Of a stretch of DNA of 64,000 nt, positions 10,499 through 51,400 are shown piece after piece (positions within the stretch are counted from its first letter, which is position 1; each line of letters begins with the position of its first letter). The notes beneath the pieces are model-generated. The model was not told the origin of the DNA. It made no database searches and saw only the letters and a list, made by a program, of their open reading frames with translations. The position numbers and the translations under genes are program-made. The DNA is from Haliscomenobacteraceae bacterium. Lineage in GTDB: Bacteria > Bacteroidota > Bacteroidia > Chitinophagales > Saprospiraceae. The stretch is taken from contig CANMVX010000004.1 of assembly GCA_947501115.1 (NCBI GenBank), forward strand, positions 1 through 64,000, read 5' to 3'.

Positions 10499-10831
10499 CT
10501 AAATAAGATTTGGGCTGGCACTTACTTGCTGATATGCAGCGCTTCCTTCAATGGGTTTGATATTATTGAATTCTTGGTCTTTTTGATTTTGCTCTTCTTC
10601 CAGATCATAATCATCTTGAAGACCTAACCAAAATTTGGCGCTTGTTCCGAAATATTTGCTGAATCGTATCGCAGTATCAGCAGTGATTCTCCGATTACCC
10701 TTTATAATTTCAGAAATGCGGGTTTGAGGGAGAAAAGTTTCCTTTGCCAAACGATAGGCAGAAATCTCCATAGGTATTAAGAATTCCTCAAGTAGGATTT
10801 CTCCCGGGTGAATATTTTTTAACTTTTCCAT
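10499..10831 (-). CDS. higA: HigA-family antitoxin (XRE helix-turn-helix)
   Basis: A DNA-binding antitoxin that neutralizes the adjacent HigB and probably represses the operon. From the ATG at 10831 the protein has 110 residues, starting MEKLKNIHPGEILLEEF, the standard HigA opening, followed by a Cro/C1-type HTH (ISAYRLAKETFLPQTRISEI) and FGTSAKFWLGLQ. The ORF track's start is a TTG inside the higB stop region and is less likely. The start codon lies 10 bases after the end of higB, the normal toxin-first order of higBA. The pair sits in the scrap region behind tRNA-fMet, suggesting lateral arrival. Confidence 0.92.
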   Translation of the reverse strand: MEKLKNIHPGEILLEEFLIPMEISAYRLAKETFLPQTRISEIIKGNRRITADTAIRFSKYFGTSAKFWLGLQDDYDLEEEQNQKDQEFNNIKPIEGSAAYQQVSASPNLI

Positions 10832-10841
10832 AGCTGTTTTA

Positions 10842-11123
10842 TTAATGATAATCCACAATACTTATTTCATAAGCATCATTATTGATCCATTTGAAGATGA
10901 TTCGCCATTGATTGTTAATCCGAATACTATAGTATTCTTGCAAAGCACCTTTTAACTTCTCAAGGTTGTTAGCGGGCGGAATGCGAAGATCATTAACATC
11001 CAGAGCGTTATTGATTATCCTTAATTTTCGACGCGCAACATCTTGAATCTCGTTTGGCAATTTTTTCGACCGAATACCATTCCAAATTTTCTCTGATTCT
11101 TTATCGCCAAAACTCTTGATCAT
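10842..11123 (-). CDS. higB: HigB-family toxin (RelE-like mRNA interferase)
   Basis: A 93-residue toxin of the HigB/RelE fold, expected to cut mRNA on the ribosome when free of HigA. It matches the family from end to end: MIKSFGDKESEKIWNG, ARRKLRIINNALDVNDLRIPP, NLEKLKGA, YSIRINNQWRIIFKW and the terminal ISIVDYH. Length and order are typical, and the reading frame is intact, so the module could be functional. A 13-base palindrome just upstream is a candidate HigA operator. Confidence 0.93.
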   Translation of the reverse strand: MIKSFGDKESEKIWNGIRSKKLPNEIQDVARRKLRIINNALDVNDLRIPPANNLEKLKGALQEYYSIRINNQWRIIFKWINNDAYEISIVDYH

Positions 11124-11135
11124 TAGTTCTGATTT

Positions 11136-11663: not shown

Positions 11664-12416
11664 TTAATCCTTGCTTTGCTTAAGGAATTCTTTAGGTGTG
11701 GTTTGGGTGAATTCCCGGAATACCTTATGAAAGGTAGATTTATTTTTGAATCCACATTGTTGCGCCATCTCAAATAGGTTGGCTCCCTTGTTTTGAGGGT
11801 CTGTTATCACTTCTTTTAATTTGTCAATTCTAAACTGATTGATATAATGTTTAAAATTATTGCCAAATTGGTTATTCACCACCTGGGAAAGGTATTTAGT
11901 ATTGCTTTTGAGACCGACGGCGACTAGTTTTATATCTAAATCAGGATCCAGGAATAAATTTTTACTGATAATTAAAGTGTTTAATCGTCTGAAAAGGGTT
12001 ACCTCATCCATTGGTTCTAAGCTGCTTGCTTTATATTTTTTTTGAATCTGAAGCATGCTATATTCACTTTCAGGTGATTTATTACTTTCATCTATTTCAA
12101 AAGCAATATAGTTTGTAAGCATTTTTTTATCGTTAAAAACGGGGTGAATAGCTAAATGACAGGAATAAGCTTCACCCGATTTTCGATAGTTTAAAATTTG
12201 GGTTTCAACAGGTAATTGTTTTTTTAACGACTTACTTATTAATTCAATGGTTTCTTTCGACGTATTTTTCCCCTGTAAAATACTACCGGGTTTTTTGCCG
12301 AGCACTTCGAATAATGAATACCCTGAAATAGCAAGAAAGGCATCATTTACCCAGATAATACTTTTCTTTTCGTCGGTAAGAATTACCGCTACTTCAGTAG
12401 ATTTGTTTTCAGTCAT
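11664..12416 (-). CDS. PAS domain-AraC family transcriptional regulator
   Basis: A 250-residue regulator. Residues about 5-110 form a PAS domain (WVNDAFLAISGYSLFEVLGK, NYRKSGEAYSCHLAIHPVF) and about 150-245 an AraC-type double helix-turn-helix (NNFKHYINQFRIDKLKEV, ANLFEMAQQCGFKNKSTFHK VFREF). The PAS loop GKKPGSILQGKNT resembles the LOV motif GRNCRFLQG but lacks the cysteine that forms the flavin adduct, so a light sensor of the usual kind is unlikely. The ligand is unknown. It is divergent from the large helicase-like gene, with a pair of direct repeats between them that may be its binding sites. Confidence 0.85.
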   Translation of the reverse strand: MTENKSTEVAVILTDEKKSIIWVNDAFLAISGYSLFEVLGKKPGSILQGKNTSKETIELISKSLKKQLPVETQILNYRKSGEAYSCHLAIHPVFNDKKMLTNYIAFEIDESNKSPESEYSMLQIQKKYKASSLEPMDEVTLFRRLNTLIISKNLFLDPDLDIKLVAVGLKSNTKYLSQVVNNQFGNNFKHYINQFRIDKLKEVITDPQNKGANLFEMAQQCGFKNKSTFHKVFREFTQTTPKEFLKQSKD

Positions 12417-12448
12417 AATATTTTCGTAAGGAAGAATGAAACATTATT

Positions 12449-12489
12449 TTTTTTAAACGGTTCATTCACTAAATGTTTTTTAAACGGTT
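12449..12489. promoter_or_regulatory. Direct repeat TTTTTTAAACGGTT x2, candidate AraC-type operator
   Basis: The 14-base word occurs at 12449-12462 and 12476-12489, 27 bases start to start, in the divergent intergenic region between the PAS-AraC regulator and the helicase-like gene. AraC-family proteins usually bind paired direct repeats, so this is a plausible autoregulatory and target site. Confidence 0.5.
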
Positions 12490-12507
12490 TCGATATCTAT
12501 ATTTTAT

Positions 12508-12515
12508 TATATTTG
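12508..12515 (+). promoter_or_regulatory. -7 promoter element upstream of the helicase-like gene
   Basis: TATATTTG fits TAnnTTTG exactly and lies about 95 bases before the ATG at 12611, just downstream of the direct repeats. No good -33 TTG is seen, which would suit an activator-dependent promoter. Confidence 0.4.
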
Positions 12516-12610
12516 TAAACAAATTAATGTATTACCTTTTAAAATTAAGTAGTTCATTTTTAACGTAAACGTGCAATTATATCAAATAGTTCGTTTCAGG
12601 TTTGGGCAGT

Positions 12611-15600
12611 ATGGGAAATGAAAGGTTAAGAACAAACGAAAAAGCTTTAGATATTTTAGCACTTTCAAAAGATATAGATTTTTTGAGGTGGGTTGCTGAC
12701 TCCGGACATTTAATTGCGCCGTCCAATCTGGTTTTTAATACGCTCTCTCCCGCGCTGACCTGGGAGATTTTTCATAAGCAAAAATTGTTTTACTCAAGAT
12801 TTGGAACGCCTTCCCTTAAAGTCGGATACCCCTTATTAATTTCAATGCAGGGAAACGAGGTTAAAGCTATACCTTTTTTTATATGGGATATTTCATTGAC
12901 GCCCGTTGATAAGGTGGGGGTAAAGTGGATGTTTTACCGGAATGTTTCCTTGTTGCCTGTAGTAAATCCAGTAATTTTAGCCCTTCCTTCCTTCGATAAA
13001 TTAAAAGCGGTGATTTCGCCATTTTTAAATAAAAATGGAATAGATCTCGATGATTTTAGAGCTATAAATCAATCTGTTGATCCTCTATTTAATAGTAATG
13101 ATGTTATTGTTCCTTTGTCTGGCGCAGATAAGGTAGAGATCAGGAAAAATGAATACAAAATTTTAAATTCGGTTCAATTAATGGTTCTTAAATCACAATT
13201 TGAACAAAAAGAAGAGCCACTTTATTTTGCTAAAAACCAAAGTGTTACCTTGCCAGGACATTCTTTTGGTTTGCAAGTTTTACTGCCTGAACAGGCCACA
13301 GCATATCAAAAGACCCTGGAAAATACGCATACTATTATTGAAGGAACAGCAGGAACAGGGAAGAAATTTTTACTTTTTAATATGGTTTCTAATGCCTTAT
13401 CGAATGGTAGATCTTGCCTTATTATTTCAGAAAATAATGGATTTTTTACATCCATGGACCATTTTTTTTCTTCAAATAATTTGGAAAATCTGGTTTTATC
13501 ACAACATGAGGGCGAACATTTAAGACAACTCATAAAAAGACTAACTTTTATTATTCAGCAGGAAAAAAATTCTCCCGTGTTTGCCGGAGATAACTTTAAA
13601 GAAATTTTGGCTTCCTGCCAAAGGCTTTTCACAAAGTTATCTATGGCTTATGGTGCGTCCAGAAAAAAAATATTTGACCAGCTGGATTGGACAGAGGTTG
13701 TTACCCTTTTTTTACAAAGCGTTAGTAGGGATGAAATTAAATTAGTTAATATTAGAATCCCTACGGATAATTTTAATTTTATACCCTCGGAATTTTATTC
13801 CTTATTGTCAGAAATTGAACCATTACAAAAAAGATTTGAAGCGATTAATACGCTCCAACATCCTTTAAATGTTTTAAATACCAGCCTTATAGACCTTTCT
13901 GATTTTGAAGAAGGAGCAGACCAGTTTAATTTACTTCTAAATGAAGAAAGGAATAACTTTCGATTTATTCTTGTTGAATATTCAAATGGTCTGGCACAGT
14001 ATTCAGATTCCTTAAATATTCGCTTGTTTAATGAAATTCAATTGATTTTAGAGCTTATAGAGGAGTTGAAAAATAAATTTGATGGATGTTTTGATCTATA
14101 CGGTAATGATTTTATTTACACGAAAAGTTTTTCTCTCCTTTTATACAGTAAAGTGGCCGGTCGGGGAAAAAAAATTGTAGAAGCGCGCGAAGAGCTAAAT
14201 GTTTTATTTCAACAGTTAAGTAATAAAATTCAAAACCAGAATATCTGGATTTTTCCTGAAATACCTCAGGATTTTGGTGTTTCCCATTTAGGAGATTGGA
14301 TGGTGTACATCGACGCATTGAAGGAAAGTGCCGTAGAATGGCAGTCCCGGCTTCCAGATTATGTGAATGAGGAAGTCCTTCGTGCCTCCAGTACCAATAT
14401 AAATTCTTTTGGGAATACGAAGGATTTATTTGTCGAACTTGAATCCTTAATGGATGAAGCTATTCAGCGTTTTAATGCTAAGTCATTCTTTCTCGAAAAA
14501 TTAGAACATCATTCCCTTACCTTAGTAGCCCGTCAAAAATGGCTGGAATCTCTGGTTAATAATTTGGATTTGATTCTTATAAATTTTCGTGACTTTCCCG
14601 TCTTTTATCAATGGCAGTTAAGTTGGAAAAATCTTTCTAAAGGAGCAAAAACAATTATTCAATCTTTTTCGACAGTTAACCCGGAAGATTGGTTAATGAC
14701 CTTCAAAAATTGGTACTTACACCAGGTCTTGTTGCGACACTACCATCACCAACTTCCCGATTCATCCCTGCCCCTGGAGACTTTTGAGGCCGATTGGGAG
14801 CTATTTCATAGCATGTTACCCCGGCAGATACAATCTCTTTGGTTTCAAAAAAGGAAAGAACGTATTAAACAGTTAAGAAAAGAAGATAAACATACCATAC
14901 AAAAAATTATTAAATGGTTTGAAAAAGAATCATTGAATGAAGTAGATTATTTATTGTTCTTAAAGGACATTAATCCTTTGTTAACAGACTGTTTTCCAGT
15001 GGTATGTATGACAGTTAATCAGCTAAATGAGCTATTTGAAGATAATCCATCTCTTCATTTTGACCATATTTTTTGGGGCGATGCATCATATCCATCTCCC
15101 GCCATTTTATCGAAATTTCAATCGCTGGCCCCTCGGGTGACTTATTTTTATAACCCTTCATTTCCTAATGAATATATTGATAATGAGCTAAAACAGAGGT
15201 ATCCAGTTTCTCTACTATCCAAAATTCATTGCTTTTATCCGGGAAATCCATGGCAACAGTGGCAGGGAGGTCACCCTACTATTCATGCAATTAAAGATGC
15301 GAATGTTCATTTTCATAGAATTAATGGTGTCCTTCAGCCGAATGGGATAAATGAGGAAGAAGCCACTTTTCTCATCGATGAGCTATCAAAAATTCGCTAC
15401 TCAACGCCTGAAAATATACCAACCATAGGGGTTGTTTGTATGACGGAAACCCAACGGAATTTTATTTCTACACTTATTTTTAAGATTCAACACCAGGAAT
15501 CAACGCTGAATAATCATTTTACTCATCTGGTAAAATATGGTTTGGAAATTCTAACGCCAGATGATATTCAATCTAAACATTTTCATTCGGTGTACCTTTT

Positions 15601-16186
15601 AACCACCTACCATGATGTAAATGAGTATGTAAACGAGGGTTGTTTTACCCCTACTGATGTGGAATTAATAGCGCAGTTACCTTTGGATAATCTGACGGTC
15701 ATAACTTCCTTTAGTAGAGCACAAATGGTGGAATTGGAAAATAAAGATGATTTATTTATTCCTTACTTAAAATTATTAGAAGCCATAAGTGTTAGAGATA
15801 TCTATTCTTTGGATTATGAGTTTCAAAAATTTAAACCCGAAGTAGAAGAATCGTTTAAAGCGCATTATCCTTCATTTTGGTCGGTATTGTCGTTGAAGCT
15901 CGAGGATAAATTGCCAACCCATGATATTCAGAAAAACATCTTTTTCAATCAGGACTTTTTTCCATTTTTTATAAAGAGAAAAATGGCTCAGTCCAATTAT
16001 ATATTTTTTCTGTTAGATGGATTTCATGCTAATGAAAGCCACACTGACTTTATTTGGGAAGTAAGACAAACGAATAAATTAAAAAAGTATAATATTGAAT
16101 TATTACCTGTCTGGACCGTAAATTGGTGGAAAAATAATAGCTTAGAAATCAAAAGGTTACTTTCAAATATCAACGATCTGGACTAA
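12611..16186 (+). CDS. Large SF1 helicase/REase-like protein with degraded ATPase motifs
   Basis: About 1191 residues from the ATG at 12611 (the ORF track starts 9 bases earlier at TTG). Its layout follows the SF1 helicases that carry a C-terminal Vsr-like nuclease domain (MTES_1575 type): an N-terminal part with PSLKVGYPLLI, a P-loop region at about 245 (EGTAGTGKKFLLFNMVSNAL), a long helical insert, a motif II region near 830 (FDHIFWGDASYPSPAIL), a motif VI-like stretch (NLTVITSFSRAQMVEL) and a C-terminal LLDGFHANESHTDF ... VWTVNWW. The Walker A S/T is Lys, DEAS has become GDAS, and the motif III Gln and TRAR arginines are not evident. It is probably not an ordinary ATP-driven helicase. Relatives occur in defence loci; that role is inference. 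Confidence 0.65.
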   Translation: MGNERLRTNEKALDILALSKDIDFLRWVADSGHLIAPSNLVFNTLSPALTWEIFHKQKLFYSRFGTPSLKVGYPLLISMQGNEVKAIPFFIWDISLTPVDKVGVKWMFYRNVSLLPVVNPVILALPSFDKLKAVISPFLNKNGIDLDDFRAINQSVDPLFNSNDVIVPLSGADKVEIRKNEYKILNSVQLMVLKSQFEQKEEPLYFAKNQSVTLPGHSFGLQVLLPEQATAYQKTLENTHTIIEGTAGTGKKFLLFNMVSNALSNGRSCLIISENNGFFTSMDHFFSSNNLENLVLSQHEGEHLRQLIKRLTFIIQQEKNSPVFAGDNFKEILASCQRLFTKLSMAYGASRKKIFDQLDWTEVVTLFLQSVSRDEIKLVNIRIPTDNFNFIPSEFYSLLSEIEPLQKRFEAINTLQHPLNVLNTSLIDLSDFEEGADQFNLLLNEERNNFRFILVEYSNGLAQYSDSLNIRLFNEIQLILELIEELKNKFDGCFDLYGNDFIYTKSFSLLLYSKVAGRGKKIVEAREELNVLFQQLSNKIQNQNIWIFPEIPQDFGVSHLGDWMVYIDALKESAVEWQSRLPDYVNEEVLRASSTNINSFGNTKDLFVELESLMDEAIQRFNAKSFFLEKLEHHSLTLVARQKWLESLVNNLDLILINFRDFPVFYQWQLSWKNLSKGAKTIIQSFSTVNPEDWLMTFKNWYLHQVLLRHYHHQLPDSSLPLETFEADWELFHSMLPRQIQSLWFQKRKERIKQLRKEDKHTIQKIIKWFEKESLNEVDYLLFLKDINPLLTDCFPVVCMTVNQLNELFEDNPSLHFDHIFWGDASYPSPAILSKFQSLAPRVTYFYNPSFPNEYIDNELKQRYPVSLLSKIHCFYPGNPWQQWQGGHPTIHAIKDANVHFHRINGVLQPNGINEEEATFLIDELSKIRYSTPENIPTIGVVCMTETQRNFISTLIFKIQHQESTLNNHFTHLVKYGLEILTPDDIQSKHFHSVYLLTTYHDVNEYVNEGCFTPTDVELIAQLPLDNLTVITSFSRAQMVELENKDDLFIPYLKLLEAISVRDIYSLDYEFQKFKPEVEESFKAHYPSFWSVLSLKLEDKLPTHDIQKNIFFNQDFFPFFIKRKMAQSNYIFFLLDGFHANESHTDFIWEVRQTNKLKKYNIELLPVWTVNWWKNNSLEIKRLLSNINDLD

Positions 16187-16191
16187 GTGGT

Positions 16192-17409
16192 TTATTTTAC
16201 GCCATCGAAAAGCCAGTTGGCCAAAGCCTGTCTGTTGGAAGGCAAAATAAATCGCTGTTGATCGAAGTTATTCCTCAAGTTGCCGAGTTCAATATAAATA
16301 GCTGGCATGGGCGCATTTTCAAGAGAGTATAATTCGCGGCTCGATAAGGTCCCTTTATAAACACCCGTTGAGCGGTTCTCCTTGTATTTTTCGCTGAATG
16401 TTTTATGAATATTATTGGCCATTTGATGTGAAATTTGACTGTTCGCCTGATGGTATAGAAAAAGGTCAACCTGTTGTTCTGTATGCCTTGAATCAACATG
16501 AATTTCTAAAAGATACTGACCATTAGGTGCTATTTTTTTATTTTTTTCGTACAATGATTTTACTACATCTATCCGCTGTTCCAATCTTTTTAGTTGACTC
16601 AGAGGGATTTTTTCACCGCCCCATACCGTTTCATCTCTATCGCAAAGTAATATTTCGTCATCTCTGATACCATCATTTCCATCCCGGGTAATCATGTAGG
16701 ACATAGCTCCTTCCTGAATAAGTTTCCTGCAGAGTCGCAAGCCAACATCATAAGCATATTCGTCTTCACAAAGCGTATGACCATTTTTCACCACCTGAGC
16801 ACCAGGATCAGGCCCGCCGTGGCCACTGATAATATAAAATATTTTACCTTTTAAAACATCAGAGAGGATCGGCGTTGATTCATATTTTCCAAAAATTGGG
16901 AACCCCTTTTCATTGGAGGTAACAGAGGTAACTGGTAAATTACATGGGGTAAAATGGTGCGGAATCCATAGCATTTTATCCGTTTGAAATGACTTTGGTT
17001 TTATGCCAGCTGAAACTAGTTGTTCATTGTATTTTTCAATTTCCTTTGCTTTCTCAAACTCCGTGATCCCTAAGCTTGATCTTATTGATTTACCGTCAAA
17101 GCCAACCTGTTTAATAGGCAAAAGGTAAGTTTTATCAAGGATTAGATTAGCCTCGGAAGATAAATTATTTAGGGAAAGAAATTTTTCCTCATTACATGAG
17201 TGGGTATCTAAATGGTAACGGACTAATAATTTTTTTATCCCATCTCCTTGTTTTGCCTTCACCGTTAACCAGTCTTCCTTGATATTTGCAGAAGATAGCA
17301 GCATAACTATGGCAAAGATTGACGATAGTAGTTTATATTTGTGTTCATGAATAAATCTAGGAGGAGTTTTCTTTTTTAAGAAATTGAATATGAAGGATTT
17401 ACATTTCAT
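16192..17409 (-). CDS. N-acetylmuramoyl-L-alanine amidase (Amidase_3)
   Basis: A peptidoglycan amidase that cuts the lactyl-L-Ala bond. From the ATG at 17409 it has 405 residues: a basic N-terminus and one hydrophobic segment (LLSSIFAIVMLLSSANI), a poorly defined middle region with a LysM-like flavour (WLTVKAKQGDGIKKLLVRYH), and a C-terminal Amidase_3 domain with zinc-site candidates in IISGHGG, CEDEYAYDVG and LEIHVD and a catalytic Glu in IYIELGNLRN. It acts in the periplasm. The ORF track start (17493) would overlap ccmB by more than 100 bases; even the chosen start overlaps it by 20, so the true start may be further inside. The stop is 5 bases from the convergent helicase-like gene. Confidence 0.85.
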   Translation of the reverse strand: MKCKSFIFNFLKKKTPPRFIHEHKYKLLSSIFAIVMLLSSANIKEDWLTVKAKQGDGIKKLLVRYHLDTHSCNEEKFLSLNNLSSEANLILDKTYLLPIKQVGFDGKSIRSSLGITEFEKAKEIEKYNEQLVSAGIKPKSFQTDKMLWIPHHFTPCNLPVTSVTSNEKGFPIFGKYESTPILSDVLKGKIFYIISGHGGPDPGAQVVKNGHTLCEDEYAYDVGLRLCRKLIQEGAMSYMITRDGNDGIRDDEILLCDRDETVWGGEKIPLSQLKRLEQRIDVVKSLYEKNKKIAPNGQYLLEIHVDSRHTEQQVDLFLYHQANSQISHQMANNIHKTFSEKYKENRSTGVYKGTLSSRELYSLENAPMPAIYIELGNLRNNFDQQRFILPSNRQALANWLFDGVK

Positions 17410-18049
17410 TTTATTGTTGTTGCGAAAAGAGTTTTTGTTAGAGTTCAGAACTCGTTCTGCTATCAGCGGTATATTTTTGTATGTAATTTCCACTTTATTT
17501 GTTGTTTATGAAACTTTTATCAAGATACAACCCAATGTATGGAATACCCTTTTCTGGATTATTCTATTGTTTGTTGCCGTTAACGCCATGGTCAAAAGTT
17601 TTGTTCAGGAAAAAGGAAACAGGGTGCTGTATTATTACAGTTTATTGAACCCATCCCATGTTTTAATAGCAAAGATAGTTTATAATACCTTGTTACTATT
17701 AGTATTAAGTTTATTAATATGGGGTTTATTTATATTTTTCGGTGATAATCCTGTAAAAGATATAGGTTTATTTCTACTTATTTTGTTTTTAGGAAGTTTT
17801 GGATTTTCGGTTACTTTCACCTTTTTAGCCTCATTAGTGGCGGCGAGTAATCAAAGTTCCACGCTGCTAGCCGTATTAAGTTTCCCATTAATAATACCGA
17901 TTATATTGATGTTAGTAAAAATATCGGCGCACGCATTAAGGCTTATACAAGACACAGCAGTTAGCGGTGACCTTGCGATATTAGTAGCCATAGACTTATT
18001 ATTATGTGGGGTTGCATTGTTGTTATTTCCATTCATCTGGAGAGATTAA
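17390..18049 (+). CDS. ccmB: Heme exporter protein CcmB
   Basis: The membrane component of the CcmABCD complex of system I cytochrome c maturation, which releases heme-loaded CcmE. The 219 residues (ATG at 17390) contain about six membrane segments and the family's opening MKDLHFILLLLRKEFLLEFRTRSAISG, QEKGNRVLYYYSLLNPSHVLIAKIVYN and a C-terminal LLFPFIWRD. ccmC follows after 10 bases. No ccmA is in the window, so the ATPase must be elsewhere. The 5' end overlaps that of the divergent amidase gene. Confidence 0.92.
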   Translation: MKDLHFILLLLRKEFLLEFRTRSAISGIFLYVISTLFVVYETFIKIQPNVWNTLFWIILLFVAVNAMVKSFVQEKGNRVLYYYSLLNPSHVLIAKIVYNTLLLLVLSLLIWGLFIFFGDNPVKDIGLFLLILFLGSFGFSVTFTFLASLVAASNQSSTLLAVLSFPLIIPIILMLVKISAHALRLIQDTAVSGDLAILVAIDLLLCGVALLLFPFIWRD

Positions 18050-18059
18050 ATGAATTATC

Positions 18060-19115
18060 ATGATTGAAAAGGGCAAAATTTGGAAATTTTCAGGGGTTAT
18101 TTTAATCGTTTATGTCATCATAGCGGGTTTATTAATTCCCTTAAAATCAGGTATTGAATCTGTCGAACCTTCTTATGGAAATGCGGGAGAAACTTTAAAA
18201 ATTCAAGTAACAGGTTACAATACGCATTTTAAAGAAGCTGGCAATTCTCTTCGAGCCTGGTTAAAATGGGAAAACGGGAAAGCTATTGCGGCTACGGAAA
18301 TGGTCGCATTAGATGAAAGGAGAATGAATTTGACCTTTTCCATTCCTAATAATTTACCTGAAAATACAGAAGTTCAGGCAGTTACCCTCTTAATTGATAG
18401 TGAGGCAGACGGCACCTCCGTGTTGCCCTCAGCGATTTTTTTAACGCAGACAGAGAAAGTATTAGCTGCAGAGGAAGTTCAATGGGTTAAACCAGGTGAT
18501 TTTTCAAATAATGGACAGATAACTTTTCCGTTCAGGAATATTTTGGGCGAAACCATTCGGAACACATATTTTCATGTGCCGCTCTGGTTTGGTATGATGT
18601 TCCTTTTTTTATTTGCAGTTATTCATAGTATTAAATATTTGAGAAAGGGGGACGCTGAATCTGACTTAAAAGCAGAAGCTTATACCCAAACGGGCATATT
18701 TTATGGATTACTTGGTCTCATAACCGGTGCTCTTTGGGCAAAAAATACCTGGGGCGCCTATTGGAGTTGGGATATAAAACAGAATATGACAGTGGTTGCC
18801 TTATTAATCTATGCTGCCTATTTTATTTTAAGAGCTTCTTTTGAAGATCCTGAGAAGAGAGCGAGAGTTTGTGCAGCTTATGGGATTTTTGCGTTTTCTA
18901 CCCTCATTCCCCTGATATATGTGATTCCAAGACTTACCGATAGCCTTCATCCGGGTTCGGGGGGAAATCCAGCTTTTGGTTCCCAGGATTTGGACAATAC
19001 GATGCGCATGGTTTTTTATCCGGCAGTTATCGGTTTTACTCTGTTTGGATTTTGGCTAAGTTCTCTCCAATTCAGGTATCTAAGACTTCAAAAATTAAGG
19101 GAAGATGTCGATTAG
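18060..19115 (+). CDS. ccmC: Heme handling protein CcmC with a periplasmic insert
   Basis: CcmC passes heme to CcmE using a tryptophan-rich periplasmic loop. The signature is present as WGAYWSWDIKQNMT (about residue 230), flanked by heme-ligand His candidates in YFHVPLWFGMMF and RLTDSLHPG. At 351 residues it is about 100 longer than classical CcmC. The excess is a hydrophilic block between membrane segment 1 (residues 8-27) and segment 2 (about 170), containing VEPSYGNAGETLKIQVTGYN, which looks like a small Ig-like domain. This arrangement is known to me from Bacteroidota. It is co-transcribed with ccmB and probably the small ccmD-like gene. Confidence 0.92.
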   Translation: MIEKGKIWKFSGVILIVYVIIAGLLIPLKSGIESVEPSYGNAGETLKIQVTGYNTHFKEAGNSLRAWLKWENGKAIAATEMVALDERRMNLTFSIPNNLPENTEVQAVTLLIDSEADGTSVLPSAIFLTQTEKVLAAEEVQWVKPGDFSNNGQITFPFRNILGETIRNTYFHVPLWFGMMFLFLFAVIHSIKYLRKGDAESDLKAEAYTQTGIFYGLLGLITGALWAKNTWGAYWSWDIKQNMTVVALLIYAAYFILRASFEDPEKRARVCAAYGIFAFSTLIPLIYVIPRLTDSLHPGSGGNPAFGSQDLDNTMRMVFYPAVIGFTLFGFWLSSLQFRYLRLQKLREDVD

Positions 19116-43376: not shown

Positions 43377-45281
43377 TTACTTATTTAAAAATAATAATCC
43401 TTCTCTCTCAATGATGATTCCCTGGTCCAACCATTCATGTAGTTTTTGTAGTAAAGCTTCCCGAACTACACCATGATAAGGAGCTGATAAAACTGAAATC
43501 GATAAGGATTTTTCAGTCAGTCGGGTTTTAATAATACTATCTAATTGGTCAATTTGAGCGTTGATTTCAGGAGATTTTTCTTTATTTGAAAGACAAATAT
43601 CACATATTCCACAAGGTTTCAGTCTTTTTTCACCAAAATACTCAACCAATGTATTCATTCTGCAAAGTTGAGCTTCAACGTATTTTAGTTGAGCTTCCAT
43701 ACGAAATTTGGCTCTGTTCTTTAAAAATGAATATCGTTCTGCGTCTATATAAAAATCATTTTGACCAGCTCTTTCTTTAGTAAATTGAAGTTGAGGTTTT
43801 TCTTTTTGAGGACGGTAGGCTAAAATCTGGAGCTTATTTAAATATTGAAGTTGCTGTTTTATTTTTTCTATCGTCATATTTAAAAAATCGCCGAGTTTAC
43901 GTTCATGAACATAAACGTAGTCTTGAAACGCACCCTGATAGGTTCGCAATAAAATTCTTAAAATAGGCTCTAAATTTGGATTTTTAAGTTGGAAATCATA
44001 CAGTTGTTCTCTATTTACTAAAATCTTGAAACTGGCAGGAACATAAATACTTTCAGAAAGATAAATCCAACCCTCCCTGGCAAGAATGGACAAACAATTA
44101 AAGGTGATAAGATTATCGAATTTATACACGCCACTAAAGTGAATTATATCAAAATCTAGAGATTCTTCTTGAGAACTTCCTGCCGCAAGCTGAAAATAAT
44201 TGGCTAGTGCCTGGTATATTTTTTTAATAACATTGATTTCCGGATAGGTTAGTGCGAATATCTTTTCTAAATTATGTTTATCATTAGGCTGAAAAAGTAA
44301 AACGGCAAAAGATTTAAGACCATCGCGACCCGCTCTTCCTGCCTCTTGATAGTATGCCTCCGGATTATCAGGTAATTCCCAATGTATCACCAATCGCACA
44401 TCTGGTTTATCAATACCCATACCAAAAGCATTGGTAGTGACCATTACTCTTATTTTATTTTGAATCCACAAATCTTGTTTTGTCGATCTTTCCTCCATAC
44501 TCAAGCCAGCATGGTAAAAGTCGGCCGATATTCTATTAGTGATAAGAAAAGCAGCTAAATCTTTTGTTTTTTTTCTGTTCCTTACATAAATAATAGCTGA
44601 ACCATTGAGTTTTTGTAATATTTTCAGACACTCCCTTTCCTTATCTTCTGTTTTCCTCACTACGAGGGAAAGATTATCTCTTGTAAATGAATCTTTAAAA
44701 ACTTCAGGATTTTTAAAATCAAGCTTATGTTGAATGTCCTGGGCTACTTCCGGAGTGGCTGTAGCAGTTAATGCAAGGATGGGTACTTTGGGAAAATGGG
44801 TTCTAATGTCAGCGATTTTTAAATAGGCTGGCCTAAAATCGTAGCCCCATTGAGATATACAATGTGCCTCGTCCACCGCAATGAGGGTTAGGGGTAATTG
44901 TAATAATCTGATTAAAAAGCGTTCTGTAAAAAGTCTTTCGGGTGATATATATAGAAATTTTACCTGACCATAAGTGCAATTATCCAGTAATCTGTCCATC
45001 TCATTTTGTCTGAGTCCGGAATATAGGGCAACGGCCGAAATATTTCGCTTCACCAGTTGTTGCACCTGGTCTTTCATGAGAGCAATTAAAGGGCTAATCA
45101 CCAGACATATACCTTCTTTACAAAGGGCGGGAACCTGATAGCACACCGATTTTCCCCCACCAGTTGGTAACAAAGCAAGGGTGTCTTTACCCTCTAAAAT
45201 GGCAGAAATTATCTCTGCTTGTAAAGGTCGGAATTTTTGGTACCCCCAATGTTTTGATAATATTTCTAATGGCGTTGAAAT
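43377..45281 (-). CDS. recQ: ATP-dependent DNA helicase RecQ, non-canonical start
   Basis: RecQ, a 3'-5' DNA helicase for recombination repair. The ORF track starts at a TTG (45173) inside motif I, but the same frame upstream encodes the conserved N-terminus PLEILSKHWGYQKFRPLQAEI and ILEGKDTLALLPTGGGKS. Between the in-frame TAA and 45173 there is no ATG, GTG or TTG, so initiation at ATT (45279-45281) or ATC is proposed, giving 635 residues. Other motifs: VDEAHCISQWGYDFRP, ALTATATPEV, HAGLSMEER, TNAFGMGIDKPDVR, QEAGRAGRDG; zinc Cys at CGICDICL; an RQC region and no clear HRDC domain. Confidence 0.85.
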   Translation of the reverse strand: MSTPLEILSKHWGYQKFRPLQAEIISAILEGKDTLALLPTGGGKSVCYQVPALCKEGICLVISPLIALMKDQVQQLVKRNISAVALYSGLRQNEMDRLLDNCTYGQVKFLYISPERLFTERFLIRLLQLPLTLIAVDEAHCISQWGYDFRPAYLKIADIRTHFPKVPILALTATATPEVAQDIQHKLDFKNPEVFKDSFTRDNLSLVVRKTEDKERECLKILQKLNGSAIIYVRNRKKTKDLAAFLITNRISADFYHAGLSMEERSTKQDLWIQNKIRVMVTTNAFGMGIDKPDVRLVIHWELPDNPEAYYQEAGRAGRDGLKSFAVLLFQPNDKHNLEKIFALTYPEINVIKKIYQALANYFQLAAGSSQEESLDFDIIHFSGVYKFDNLITFNCLSILAREGWIYLSESIYVPASFKILVNREQLYDFQLKNPNLEPILRILLRTYQGAFQDYVYVHERKLGDFLNMTIEKIKQQLQYLNKLQILAYRPQKEKPQLQFTKERAGQNDFYIDAERYSFLKNRAKFRMEAQLKYVEAQLCRMNTLVEYFGEKRLKPCGICDICLSNKEKSPEINAQIDQLDSIIKTRLTEKSLSISVLSAPYHGVVREALLQKLHEWLDQGIIIEREGLLFLNK

Positions 45282-45443: not shown

Positions 45444-48400
45444 ATGATACACAAACCTTCTTTAACGTTTTTTTCTGCTTATTTATTGATAATTAAGGTG
45501 ATAATGGTCTTTTTACTGGTATCGCCCTCGATATTATTAAGGGCTCAGGAGACTTTCTTTATACCTATACAATCTGATATCAGAACGTCTGACCCATTGC
45601 TTGATAGTCTGGTAAATAAATCTTTATTTACCACTTCAAAGAATAGTATCAGAAAAATATTAGCAAATGAGCCTGATAGATGGGATTTAATTATTCCATT
45701 GGAAAATGAGGCTAACTGGGTATTAGCTTTAGAAAAGGTAAAAATATGGGATAATTTAGCCAGTATAGAAACAGCCTCGGGTAAAAAGATTAGTTTGCCG
45801 TCTGATGGTGTTCATTATCGGGGTACGGTGAAAGGACATAAAGGTAGCCTGGTATCAATGAGTATTTTCGATAATGGGATGACTGGTTTTGTTAGTTTCC
45901 CAGATAGGGGGAATTTTCAATTGAATCCAAATACCCATGTTTCAATGGGGGCTTTTGTTAACCATGTTCTTTATCCCGTGTCATCTTTGCCTATAAGAAA
46001 AACTTATGAATGTGCCGCTGCAGAAGGAGAACCTTATCGAGCGGAAGAATTAAAATCTTTTGGAACCCTGAGAGCGGAACCAAAATGTATAAAAGTTTAT
46101 TATGAGCTTGATTATGATATTTTTCAAGATAAAGGGGGGATAGCGCCCTCGTTACAATTCTTAACGAGTCTTTTTAACCAGGTCAGTACGCTTTTTTCAA
46201 ATGATGGCGTGCAAATAAGGCTCTCCGGAGTGAAAATATGGGATATTCCCAGTCCATACAATGGTGCCGATTCAGAGCAAATGCTCACCCAGTTTGGGGC
46301 AACAAGGACCTCATTTACCGGGGATATTGGTCAGTTGATTTCTTATAAAGCCAGTGGAGGAATCGCCTGGGTGCGCGGAGTTTGTTCGCCCTCTCGTTTT
46401 CGTTTAAGTTTTGCAAGTATTGATGACTCATTTCAAAATTTCCCAACTTATTCTTGGAGTGTTTTTGTAATGGCGCACGAATTGGGCCATACCCTCGGCT
46501 CAAGCCATACTCATGCCTGTGTATGGAATGGCAATAATACGGCTATCGATGGATGTTATTCTACGGAAGGTGGTTGTAATAGTTTTGGTTTGCCCGCCGC
46601 TGGTGGTACTATAATGTCCTATTGTCACTTGAGAAGGGTAGGGGTTAATTTTTCTCTTGGTTTTGGGGTTCAGCCTGGAAATGTTATTCGAAATACAATT
46701 GCTCAGGCTTCCTGTCTTACAAATTGTGATGCCACAGATTTTACATTAGAAGCATCCTCGCTGATTTATAATTTTAAAGCGGCGGGAGGAAAAAGAATCC
46801 TCAATATTACTGGAAATGCAGAATGGAATATTTCAAAAAATAGTAGTTGGTTAACCTTAAGCCAAAATACTGGAATAGGTACCACGCAGATTGAATTAGT
46901 CTCAGCTATTTTTAATGGCCCGTTAAATAGAAACGATACCCTGTTTTTGACGGGCGCAGGAAAATTAATTAAAATAGCCGTCAACCAGGAGAAATTTATT
47001 GCAGCAGAATGTCCTTCAGCCACTATCGGTGTAAATAATACTGTTTTTTGTGAAAATGCGAAGGTAAATTTTAATGCGAATACCCAAAATGTAGGAAGGT
47101 ATAATTTACAATATGTATGGCAATCCAGGATAGACAGTCTCACCTGGAATACCGTATCTACAGGCATTGATAGTACCTATTCATTTATTTCTCAGCCAGG
47201 GGGTGATTTTACTTATCGTTTTCAACTCAGTGCCCCAGGGTCCGATTGTCCATTAATCACTCCTGCACCTGCTACCGTAAGAGTTATTATTCAACCTCAG
47301 GTGTCCATAGAAACAACGGATTCAACGACCATCTGTTTAGGAAATGCCGTTACCTTAAAAGAGAAATTATTTTCGCCCTGGACATCTACATTGCTTCGAA
47401 GACAGTGGTTTAAAAGCGTAAATGGTATCGCCTGGGACAGTTTGCCTGCAGCGTCAGGAACAAATCTGGTTCTATCGGGAAATGAACCAACGTCATCATT
47501 CTATCAACTCAGAGTTAGTGTCGATGGTCCATCATCTTGCCAAACAGCTATTTCTCAGGCATTCAAAGTTGATATTTTAGATACTACTTTAGTCAATGTG
47601 GTTGCTAATGATTCTTTAATCTGCCAGGGCAAACCACTTCAAATCATTTCCATAGCTCCAACGAGTGGAAGTATTGGGTTTGATTATCAATGGCAACAAT
47701 TGAACAGGCAGACTCAAATATGGAGTAATATACCCGGTGCTAACTTATCGGCCTATAACAATAATAATCTGAATACAGGTTTTTATACTTTCAGACTAAA
47801 ATATAAAAGGAAATTAGCTTCTTGTCCAGAGCTGATATCCAATGAATTACCTATAAGGGTAGATACGATTCCTTCCGTTGCCGTACTTTTCCCTTCTTCA
47901 AAATTATGCCCCGGGGAAAGTATTAGTTTAACTGCTACATCGACGCCAAATCTGCCAGGAAGTTTTATTTGGCAACAAAGTTCCAATGGAAATAATTGGA
48001 ATAATGTGTCTGGATTTAATACGGAGGTTTTAACCTATCAAGCACCTGCCGCGGGAAAATCTTATATCAGAGTTAGATTCTTACCTTCAAATTATGCCAA
48101 TTGCGACTCCATTTATTCAAATATTGGCCTTATAGAATCTGATACATCCAATTTGATCTCCTTGGTTTTATCTTCTCCAGCTGACACGCTTTGTTTAGGT
48201 GGTGCAAGTAAAATGACCTTAGTGCTGAAAAGTCTAACCAATTTACCCGATTCTATTACCTACAGATATGAGGTTAAAAGGGATACAGGAGTATGGCAAT
48301 TATTATCGGAAACCAGAGATACCTCTATTCTTTATACAACAAATGGATTAGGGAATTATGCATTCCGTGTTTCGATGGAGATTAAAGGAATAACTTGTAA

Positions 48401-51400
48401 CAGATTATTTTCCAATGAAATAAAATGGAATGTGGGGGAAACATCAATAGTTGCATTACCATACAGAGAAATAAATTTGTGTTATGGTAGCCCTTTTAAT
48501 CTAACGCCAACGATAAATAGACCAGGGGTAGGGCGTCCGGATTTTCAATGGCAGCAAAGAAAAGATTTTTCCGATTGGACAGATTTACCCGGGGCGACTT
48601 CTTTGTCTTATAATGGAAATGATACCATAAACGGAGCGGTTTATTATAGATTAAAGTACTTAAATGCTGGAATAGGTTGTTCTCCCTTTTTTACCGATAG
48701 TGTATTAGTTCGTAAAAAAGGAAATACCATTGTACGAATAGGTGCAAGTACATTGAATCCTTGTTCCGGTGCGTCTGTTATATTAGCGGCTAATACTTTA
48801 CAACCCGAAACAGAGCCGTTTTCATCTGCTTGGCAGGAATCAAATGATTCTATTTCCTGGAGAACCATTGGCAATAATTCCTTTAATTACAGTTTAACCT
48901 GGAATCAAAATACGCCGAAGTATTTTAGATTTATCTATAAAAGTAGCGTTTCTGGTTGTGATTCCAGCTTTTCAAATGTGTTAAAATTAGTTCCAAAAGC
49001 GGGTATTATAGCGACTATAAGGGCTGGAAATAATTTTTTATGTAAAGGCGATACTCTGATAAGAGAAGCAAATATAACAGGTATTGCAGGTACTCAAGGT
49101 CTTCAGTGGCAATGGAGTAAAGATGGTAATCGTTGGAATATTATCAATGGTGCATCAGGCGTAAGATTGCGCTGGGTTCCCGATTCGACAGGAACTATTT
49201 TTCTTCGACTAAAAGTTTGGGATAATCCTATTTCTTGTGACACCAGTTATTCTGTAAGACAGGAAATTAATATTTTTAATAATCCTGAAATTAAAATTAT
49301 TCCTGCTTCGGGTACTTTTTGTCAAGGTCAGCCCATTTTATTAACGGCCCAATTATCAGATTCAACCGTATCTATTCCCGTGTTTTGGCAACAAAGCAGA
49401 AATGGAACAAGTTGGGTGAATATCCCTGGCGCGGATTCTACAAATTACCGCTTTCCGGCAAGAGATTCCGGTCTGTTTTATTTTAGAGTCATTACCGGCA
49501 GCATTGGCGGTAATTGTGCCACTGGTACTTCGTCAGTGTCTAATCTTTCCGTGATTCCAACCTTTGCCGTAAGTGGAATGGCTTCTAAATCTGAAGTTTG
49601 TCAAAATGATAGTGTTACTTTAAGGGCTAGTTGGAGGGACATACCTGTGCAACCCTTTATTCAATGGTATTCAAGCAGAGATAGAATTAATTACACGCTC
49701 ATACCTGGTGGAGAGAAGGCAGAAGTCAATATAAAAAGCAATGAACCAGGTATTATTTTTTATAGAGCACAACTCACCGTGCCGGGTTATTCCTGTGGTA
49801 TCGTTTTTTCTGAACCTATTCCTGTTTCATTTCAAGGGGGACTTTCTGTGTCAGTGAATGCAGACCAATCCATTTCTTGTTTAGGTTCACCGGTAGTTAT
49901 AAGATCAGTGGTAACCAATGTGGGAAATACTCCCGTTCTGTATCAATGGGAATCAAGTACTGATAACAAAAGCTGGGAACCTATTCTGGGGGCTATTGCT
50001 GTTACCTATACTGTTCAAGCCAGTGTTCAGTCAGATAAATTTTATAGATTACGACTCATAAATAATACGTTGGCTTGTCCGCTAACTATTTCACCATCTG
50101 TAAGAGTTTTTATCACTTCCATTCCAAATGTAGTTTTAACAGCCAATAGATTGACGGTTTGTGCCGGTGAGGAGGTTAGATTACAAGGTGTCTCTAACAG
50201 AGGCTATAATTTACCCGTAACCTGGAGGTGGTTTAGAAGAGTGGGAACCGGTGCATTTACACAAATAACAGGAGCTAATGATTCTTTTTATGTCGCGCCC
50301 ACCCAGACAGCTGGAAAAACCAGTTATCAATTGCGTATGCAGGTGGGTGATGCCATTTGTGCCAGTTCAACATCTACTTCCTTAGAAATTACAGTTAATC
50401 CAAACTTCACTCTATCCCTTCAACAAGATGCTGATGAAAAATGCGTAGCAAATTTCCATCGGATTTTCGCTGTGGTTACTGGAGCAAATCGCGATTCCTT
50501 AACCTATAAATGGCAAAGAAGTTTGAATGGTTCTCAATGGGAATTTGTAGATGTGCCCTCCTTTTTTCAGTGGTATGCTCCCGTTACTGATCCAGGTTAT
50601 TTCTATAGAGTAGGGGTTCAAAATCTGGCAGGTTCTTGTGGGCTTTCTTTTTCAAATGCCATTCAGCTAACAGGTACAAAACTCCCATCTGTGAGTATTC
50701 AGTCTGCTATAAAATATGCCTGTAAAGGCGATTTTGTGCCTATTACTGCCACCGTTTCTGATAATTCCTTCCCCGTATTATATAGATGGCAATTCAGTAG
50801 AGACAACAAGTTTTGGAATACCATTGCAGAAGCCGGTTCACTCACCGAAAGATTTAATATAACTACCACCGGTATTTATTATTTCAGAGTGCAGATTCTG
50901 AAATTGGGTTCTACTTGTGTTGCTTATTCTAATACAATAACTATCAGGGGGGTACAAACTAATACGGCTACCTTGACGACCAATCAGGGTGAAAATCCTA
51001 TCCTTTGCCCCGGCGTCACTACGACCTTGTCTGCTTCCATGGGCGCGAATCTATCTTTTCCCGTTAAATATAGATGGCAGTATGGCGTGGATGGTATTAA
51101 CTGGACAAATATCAATAATGCCGTGGGTGATAAATTGGCAGTTAATCAATTAACTGGCGACAAAGCAGGGTATTACAGGGCCGTCCTTCAAGTAGATAGT
51201 AGTATATGTCCGGCCGTCACTACGCCTGCTATCTATATTAGGTCTGCCGGATTTGATGACTTTACTACGAATATTCAGGATACTTTACTTTGTTTTGGGG
51301 GCACTTCCTTGATTGAGGTTAAATCTCTTGGAAATATTCAAGGATTAAGATTTCAGTGGCAACAACTGGAATATATAGGTAATTGGTTAAATCTGACAGG

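Follow-up and report, generated by a model that had tools for sequence, protein, structure and literature searches.

Catalytically degraded SF1B-type helicase-nuclease homologues in the Saprospiraceae are probably retained as non-enzymatic proteins

Pseudohelicases have so far been known singly, as AddB, RecC and the PriA protein of Deinococcus radiodurans. AddB and RecC contain inactive helicase domains in which most of the motifs have been lost, and the superfamily 1 (SF1) fold has taken on the role of a surface for binding or scanning (PMC4824097). D. radiodurans PriA is a pseudohelicase whose motifs have decayed in one lineage, and whose binding functions have been kept (PMC4504706). A Vsr-fold domain termed MTES_1575 has been described in proteins with SF-I helicases (PMC3710099), and the PDC-S37 and Hhe helicase-nucleases combine an SF1 helicase with an MTES_1575/Vsr-like nuclease. 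Here we have analyzed a gene with the same domain order, located in 64,000 nucleotides of DNA from a Haliscomenobacteraceae bacterium (family Saprospiraceae; contig CANMVX010000004.1, positions 1 to 64,000), hereafter the window. Its sequence points to a domesticated, catalytically dead helicase-nuclease that has probably been retained as a non-enzymatic binding or scaffold protein, centered on a large helical insert and the C-terminal fold.

The gene is a single uninterrupted frame that could begin at ATG 12611 or TTG 12602, and ends with a stop codon at 16184-16186. The protein comprises, in order, an N-domain, RecA1, the helical insert, RecA2 and a Vsr-like C-terminus. The features are summarized in Table 1. 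An earlier note made from the letters alone had described an intact frame of about 1191 codons, and the frame from ATG 12611 to 16186 is indeed unbroken.

Table 1. Positions in the window of the helicase-like gene, its domains and altered motifs, and its two immediate neighbors.
Feature	Position	Strand	Remarks
Whole gene	12611..16186	+	1191 codons from ATG; inactive SF1B-type helicase with C-terminal Vsr/MTES_1575-like domain
N-terminal domain, aa 1-220	12611..13270	+	Weak DUF4011 match in relatives; deleted in short homologues L178, L180, L181, L182, L192
RecA domain 1, first part, aa 221-330	13271..13600	+	Q-motif Gln at aa 228; pLDDT mostly >90 around P-loop
Altered Walker A GTAGTGKK, aa 245-252	13343..13366	+	Lys for Ser/Thr; GKK in 7/7 genus members
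Large all-helical insert, aa 331-790 (~460 residues)	13601..14980	+	Long coiled-coil helices; occupancy 0.79-1.0 in every truncated homologue
Degraded motif II, GDAS for DEAS, aa 823-826	15077..15088	+	Alignment to intact relatives
Degraded motif III, YNPSF for GDxxQ	15149..15163	+	QLPP loop after motif III site deleted
RecA domain 2, aa 881-1045	15251..15745	+	Motif IV QR kept (aa 948-949); motifs V and VI lost
Motif V site, DIQSKHFHS for NIQGDERDI	15563..15589	+	Alignment to intact relatives
Motif VI site	15671..15694	+	TRA Arg to Leu (aa 1023)
C-terminal Vsr/MTES_1575-like domain	15866..16183	+	β2 Asp to Pro 1118; β3 Glu to Leu 1134; Asp 1136 kept
PAS + AraC-type regulator, divergent neighbor	11664..12416	-	Pfam PAS_9, HTH_18
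N-acetylmuramoyl-L-alanine amidase, convergent neighbor	16192..17493	-	Pfam Amidase_3; synteny

The motifs have been read by alignment with intact paralogues and relatives. Motif I departs from the SF1B consensus GxxGxGK[ST], and in motif II the sequence FDEAS has become WGDAS by substitution of D by G at aa 823 and E by D at aa 824, so that there is no DExx. The alignment therefore upholds the earlier readings of GTAGTGKK and GDAS. Motifs III and VI had not been evident in the sequence, and we find YNPSF in place of GDxxQ and Leu in place of the motif VI Arg. Motif V is changed from QGxE to QSKH (NIQGDERD in the intact paralogues, DIQSKHFH here), and motif IIIa is also gone. In the C-terminal domain the acidic pair of the nuclease, Asp in β2 and Glu in β3, is mostly present in the intact relatives and is replaced by Pro and Leu. 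The protein keeps the Q-motif Gln (Q228), the P-loop Gly and Lys (K251) and the QR of motif IV. A scan of the window protein for further P-loop-like strings found none besides GTAGTGKK. It is thus very likely that both the motor and the nuclease chemistry have been lost. The protein should not hydrolyze ATP, because the Mg/phosphate side of the pocket is altered in the genus (Lys for Thr, and Gly for Asp).

The gene is present in all seven genomes of the genus with 90-94% identity and an intact frame, the G003 copy being divided over two contigs at an assembly end. GKK and GDA(S/Q) are common to all seven. Since all seven share the exact substitutions, these are due neither to sequencing error nor to chance. 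We have calculated the ratio of non-synonymous to synonymous substitution rates (dN/dS) as the mean of pairwise Nei-Gojobori values for the seven genus members over ~1190 codons. For the whole gene dN/dS = 0.14, with values of 0.18 for the motif I region, 0.22 for the N-domain, 0.11 for the dead motif II region, 0.109 for the helical insert and 0.107 for the C-terminal part (aa 1046-1191). For comparison, the PAS-AraC neighbor, the amidase and the intact paralogue gave 0.12, 0.09 and 0.09 respectively, and the range for ccmB, ccmC and glutamate dehydrogenase was 0.02-0.05. Compared with its housekeeping neighbors the gene thus evolves more quickly, but it is clearly constrained, dead motifs included. 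It is not a pseudogene; purifying selection is shown in the genus. As in AddB and RecC, a helicase fold with lost motifs has been retained under selection.

A gene decaying under relaxed selection might also show drifting catalytic motifs, loss of domains and absence from some genomes, all of which are found in the wider family. This is contradicted by the dN/dS of the whole gene and by the intact frames of the seven genus members, and there are few in-frame stops among the family-level matches listed. The random decay that would have spoken against a pseudoenzyme is thus not seen, and we regard simple decay as extremely improbable.

An AlphaFold2 model of the window protein was built from 39 sequences, with a mean pLDDT of 79.8 and values >90 around the P-loop. 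It has RecA-type lobes, an all-helical insert at ~aa 331-790, and a C-terminal domain of restriction-endonuclease/Vsr topology. The motif segments lie at SF1 positions (strand 240-245, loop, helix 251-264), and strand 819-822 immediately precedes GDAS. In a Foldseek search of solved structures SETX, UPF1 and DNA2 were among the best matches (E ~3e-6 to 6e-5, probability 1.00). The two RecA-like lobes and the topology of the helicase core are thus those of an SF1B (UPF1-like) protein. A profile of the relatives of the window protein matches UPF1/NAM7, Aquarius, SMUBP2, SETX and DNA2 chains. Searched as a single sequence, the window protein gave no matches in the PDB. The best Pfam matches of the protein alone were below cut-off and located on the P-loop or on AAA_12, and PADLOC gave mad8 at 4e-5 and PDC-S37 at 8.4e-5, the latter in the P-loop region only; it does not match the PDC-S37 or Hhe profile over its whole length. 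Neither the model nor the string scan places an intact Walker A or B elsewhere, which supports the pseudoenzyme reading made previously.

The C-terminal domain has the predicted topology α-β-β-β-α-β-α. The MTES_1575 family (PF18741) is matched by 26 of the 39 aligned members at E ≤ 0.1, and the domain of the window protein itself is below detection for MTES_1575 in the Pfam scan. Family matches and topology together assign the domain to the MTES_1575 (Vsr-fold) family, with the acidic pair replaced (D to P and E to L) in the window protein. The SF1 layout with a C-terminal Vsr-like domain that had been proposed is therefore borne out by the model, Foldseek and the family matches. Modeled alone, the helical insert is again all-helical (pLDDT 82.6). 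A fold search with the isolated insert against solved structures returned only coiled-coil noise, with a best E of 0.16.

Of 248 Saprospiraceae genomes, 131 gave homologues in a profile search, usually a single one each. Outside the family, a phylum-wide sample gave only sporadic and much weaker matches; two of these, L122 and L123, were aligned, and their motifs are intact. Between genera the protein is only ~20-25% identical. In a FastTree tree of 84 sequences, 73 degraded and 11 intact proteins lie on opposite sides of one branch, and a second tree, made from a reduced set, gives this branch an SH-aLRT of 100. The QGxE of motif V is kept by all 11 intact proteins and by none of the 73 degraded ones. 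GK[ST] is kept in 48 of the 73 and in every intact relative, and of the degraded proteins 10 retain GDxxQ, 18 the motif II DE and 22 the Arg of motif VI. No degraded member has all six motifs together, and the window genus keeps none of them. By parsimony the P-loop has changed ~8 times and motif II ~13 times. Motifs I, II, III and VI have been lost multiple times; motif V was probably lost first, with the remaining motifs following repeatedly.

Conservation within the clade is uneven. The Q-motif, the first and third Gly and the Lys of the P-loop, and the QR of motif IV lie in the 93rd-99th percentile (the Q228 column at the 97th), while the columns of motifs II, III and VI and of the Gln and Glu of motif V lie between the 2nd and the 74th. 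Fold residues, and W, N and Y residues of the helical insert, are at 90-100% while the catalytic columns drift. The substitutions of the window protein are conserved within its genus, and across the clade the losses target hydrolysis and coupling residues with the fold residues conserved.

The main rival explanation, suggested by the nucleotide pocket that much of the clade retains, is a nucleotide switch, in which ATP or another nucleotide would be bound without hydrolysis and would control conformation, as in other hydrolysis-dead P-loop proteins. The highly conserved Q-motif Gln, P-loop GxGK and motif IV QR, and the number of proteins with GK[ST], are consistent with this, as is the presence of K251 and Q228 in the window protein. 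However, in all seven genus members Lys stands in place of the Mg-binding Ser/Thr and Gly in place of the Walker B Asp, the P-loop has changed at least eight times by parsimony, and relatives have deleted whole lobes, some of them at the same locus. We therefore consider a switch unlikely, though less so than the other alternatives.

In Aureispira-type homologues (~1040 aa), and in other short ones, RecA lobe 2 is deleted entirely. Homologues of 711-802 aa are without the N-domain, and most have no recognizable P-loop and have lost much or all of lobe 2. Several of these have kept the syntenic position, with the PAS-AraC and MORN-lipoprotein genes as neighbors, to which the amidase and ccmB genes are added in some. 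On the tree the short forms branch within the degraded clade, at two or three separate points at least. All of them retain the helical insert and the C-terminal fold.

The course of events that would lead to a non-enzymatic binding or scaffold protein can be outlined as follows. An ancestor akin to an SF1B helicase with a Vsr-like nuclease of the PDC-S37/Hhe type would have become fixed at a chromosomal place early in the Saprospiraceae. The coupling residues of motif V were lost, and in most lineages those of the ATPase, the arginine finger and the nuclease as well, as the sequences show. Since every descendant keeps the insert and the C-terminal Vsr-like fold, even where P-loop, N-domain or a RecA lobe is gone, the function that the protein has now most likely resides in these two parts. 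The helicase lobes would be a rigid frame in the course of being dismantled.

Some observations weigh against this explanation. In many clade members of other genera the P-loop is still good, and the Q-motif Gln and motif IV QR are present; for these proteins nucleotide binding may continue to be important. No relative of the helical insert is recognizable by fold, so that only its retention speaks for a binding scaffold. The exact tree positions of the short forms are weakly supported, with long branches. Lastly, locus L189 has the syntenic block and has lost the gene outright, which is therefore not essential across the family.

The most eroded forms have 711-768 aa (L181:4621-6924, L182:4793-6925 and L192:2702-4996), with mainly insert and C-terminal similarity left. 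A Pfam scan of one of them, L181, recognized no domain.

The intact proteins connect the clade with known systems. The intact paralogues L107 and L120 match PADLOC PDC-S37 at 1e-123 to 7e-124 and the intact sisters match Hhe at 1e-71, while typical members of the degraded clade match PDC-S37 at 1e-18 to 1e-40. The matches of the intact sisters support an ancestry in defense, the models being candidate-defense ones. The suggestion of a defense-derived protein put to another use thus stands as regards ancestry, but there is no defense island around the gene. A PADLOC scan of 18 window proteins gave no defense matches other than a RecQ-like helicase and weak CARF/CasR matches that belong to a small window protein. 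Neither a defense-island context nor a patchy presence was found, and a present-day defense function is not supported. Unlike PDC-S37 and Hhe, the clade has lost helicase and nuclease residues, and has the synteny and distribution of a resident chromosomal gene. A non-catalytic role in phage defense might be envisaged, in which the protein would, for instance, sense phage proteins directed against the intact helicase-nuclease or act as their decoy. The relationship of the sisters to PDC-S37 and Hhe, and evolution faster than that of the housekeeping neighbors, would fit such a role. The lack of defense genes nearby in the PADLOC scan, the conserved chromosomal synteny and the broad, usually single-copy presence argue against it, and we think it improbable.

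The RecQ-like frame lies ~27 kb from the gene (window 43377-45173, minus strand, 598 aa). It has strong PADLOC matches to DpdF and PsyrT, and is probably a RecQ-type helicase rather than a defense gene.

Alternatively, the window protein might be to an active SF1 partner what RecC is to RecB and AddB to AddA, namely the inactive member of a heteromeric helicase-nuclease; the gene for the partner would then lie elsewhere. The style of motif loss is that of the helicase-like domains of AddB and RecC (PMC4824097), and the genome has an intact paralogue of 1492 aa (G000:C11). Yet many carriers, such as G007, G020, G021 and G026, have no close copy of this paralogue, no helicase gene is adjacent, and two PDDEXK_1 proteins (1052 and 899 aa) that the genome already encodes are likely AddA/AddB. 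We give this explanation little credence. A heterodimer specifically with the 1492-aa paralogue is not supported by co-occurrence, and a substitute for RecBCD/AddAB was rejected given the two PDDEXK_1 proteins.

In the 1492-aa paralogue (G000:C11:66615-71090; L112, orthologue of L107:6933-11408) a GYF_2 domain is located at the N-terminus and a GreA/GreB C-terminal domain (PF01272, 2.5e-8; scan of L107) at the other end. This paralogue is a helicase-nuclease with a transcription-factor-like tail, and adjoins DUF1501, cytochrome-like and amine-oxidase genes.

The dead helicase-nuclease resembles AddB and RecC in keeping the SF1 fold while most motifs are lost. Those proteins, however, are SF1A-type subunits with an active partner, while the window protein is SF1B/UPF1-like and no adjacent partner was found. 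It resembles D. radiodurans PriA as a bacterial helicase with lineage-specific decay of its motifs. PriA belongs to helicase superfamily SF2 and has a role in replication restart; unlike PriA, relatives in the window clade also lose whole RecA lobes. In the open-licence papers searched we have found no description of this Saprospiraceae clade, nor of Hhe, and a dead SF1B helicase-nuclease that spans the Saprospiraceae and loses its motifs and lobes by degrees appears to be undescribed there. One bacterial family provides a graded series, partly at a single syntenic locus, from near-complete motifs to loss of lobes. This makes the use of a helicase fold after the death of its motor directly testable by comparative genetics, and would document the reuse of a defense-type enzyme as a resident cellular protein. 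Annotation of such proteins as helicases or defense genes would be wrong.

Beyond the amidase gene in the window there are frames that we read by inspection as ccmB and ccmC. Synteny was counted in 55 homologue groups (grouped at >80% identity), using only those with usable flanks. The PAS-AraC regulator is near the gene in 16 of 42 groups, and is divergent every time. A MORN-repeat lipoprotein is found in 18/42, a GH3 + beta-lactamase-fold protein in 15/43 and the amidase in 9/43, with constant orientation. A strict tie to the PAS-AraC regulator was rejected, as the regulator is present without the gene in L189, L190, L191 and L193-L197; co-regulation is therefore only a hint. We put forward tentatively, as a possibility short of an even chance, a more specific history. 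A phage-defense helicase-nuclease may have been domesticated in the Saprospiraceae ancestor to yield a non-enzymatic protein of core-like character, encoded at a cell-wall/regulatory locus, its motor being stripped stepwise (motifs, and then RecA lobes), with a helical module of unrecognized fold carrying a new cellular function, possibly under PAS-AraC.

An old Saprospiraceae block of cell-wall and housekeeping genes, in which the gene is often found (L083, L085, L088, L094 and others; window 11664-19115), comprises the MORN-repeat lipoprotein, PAS-AraC, the dead helicase and DUF3267, and continues with the GH3 + beta-lactamase-fold protein, the amidase and ccmB/ccmC. A tight subclade (L096, L098, L100, L101, L103 and L106) has lost the P-loop Lys, having GTG followed by A or V, and has its own, internally conserved gene neighborhood. 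At window 10499-11126 (minus strand) there is a HigA-like antitoxin frame, identified by inspection, with a partner of ~93 aa. This pair is called at only three of the seven genus loci (the window, L069 and L071), and is therefore probably a recent insertion or loss. The window also contains a very long frame of 2699 codons at 45444-53543 on the plus strand.

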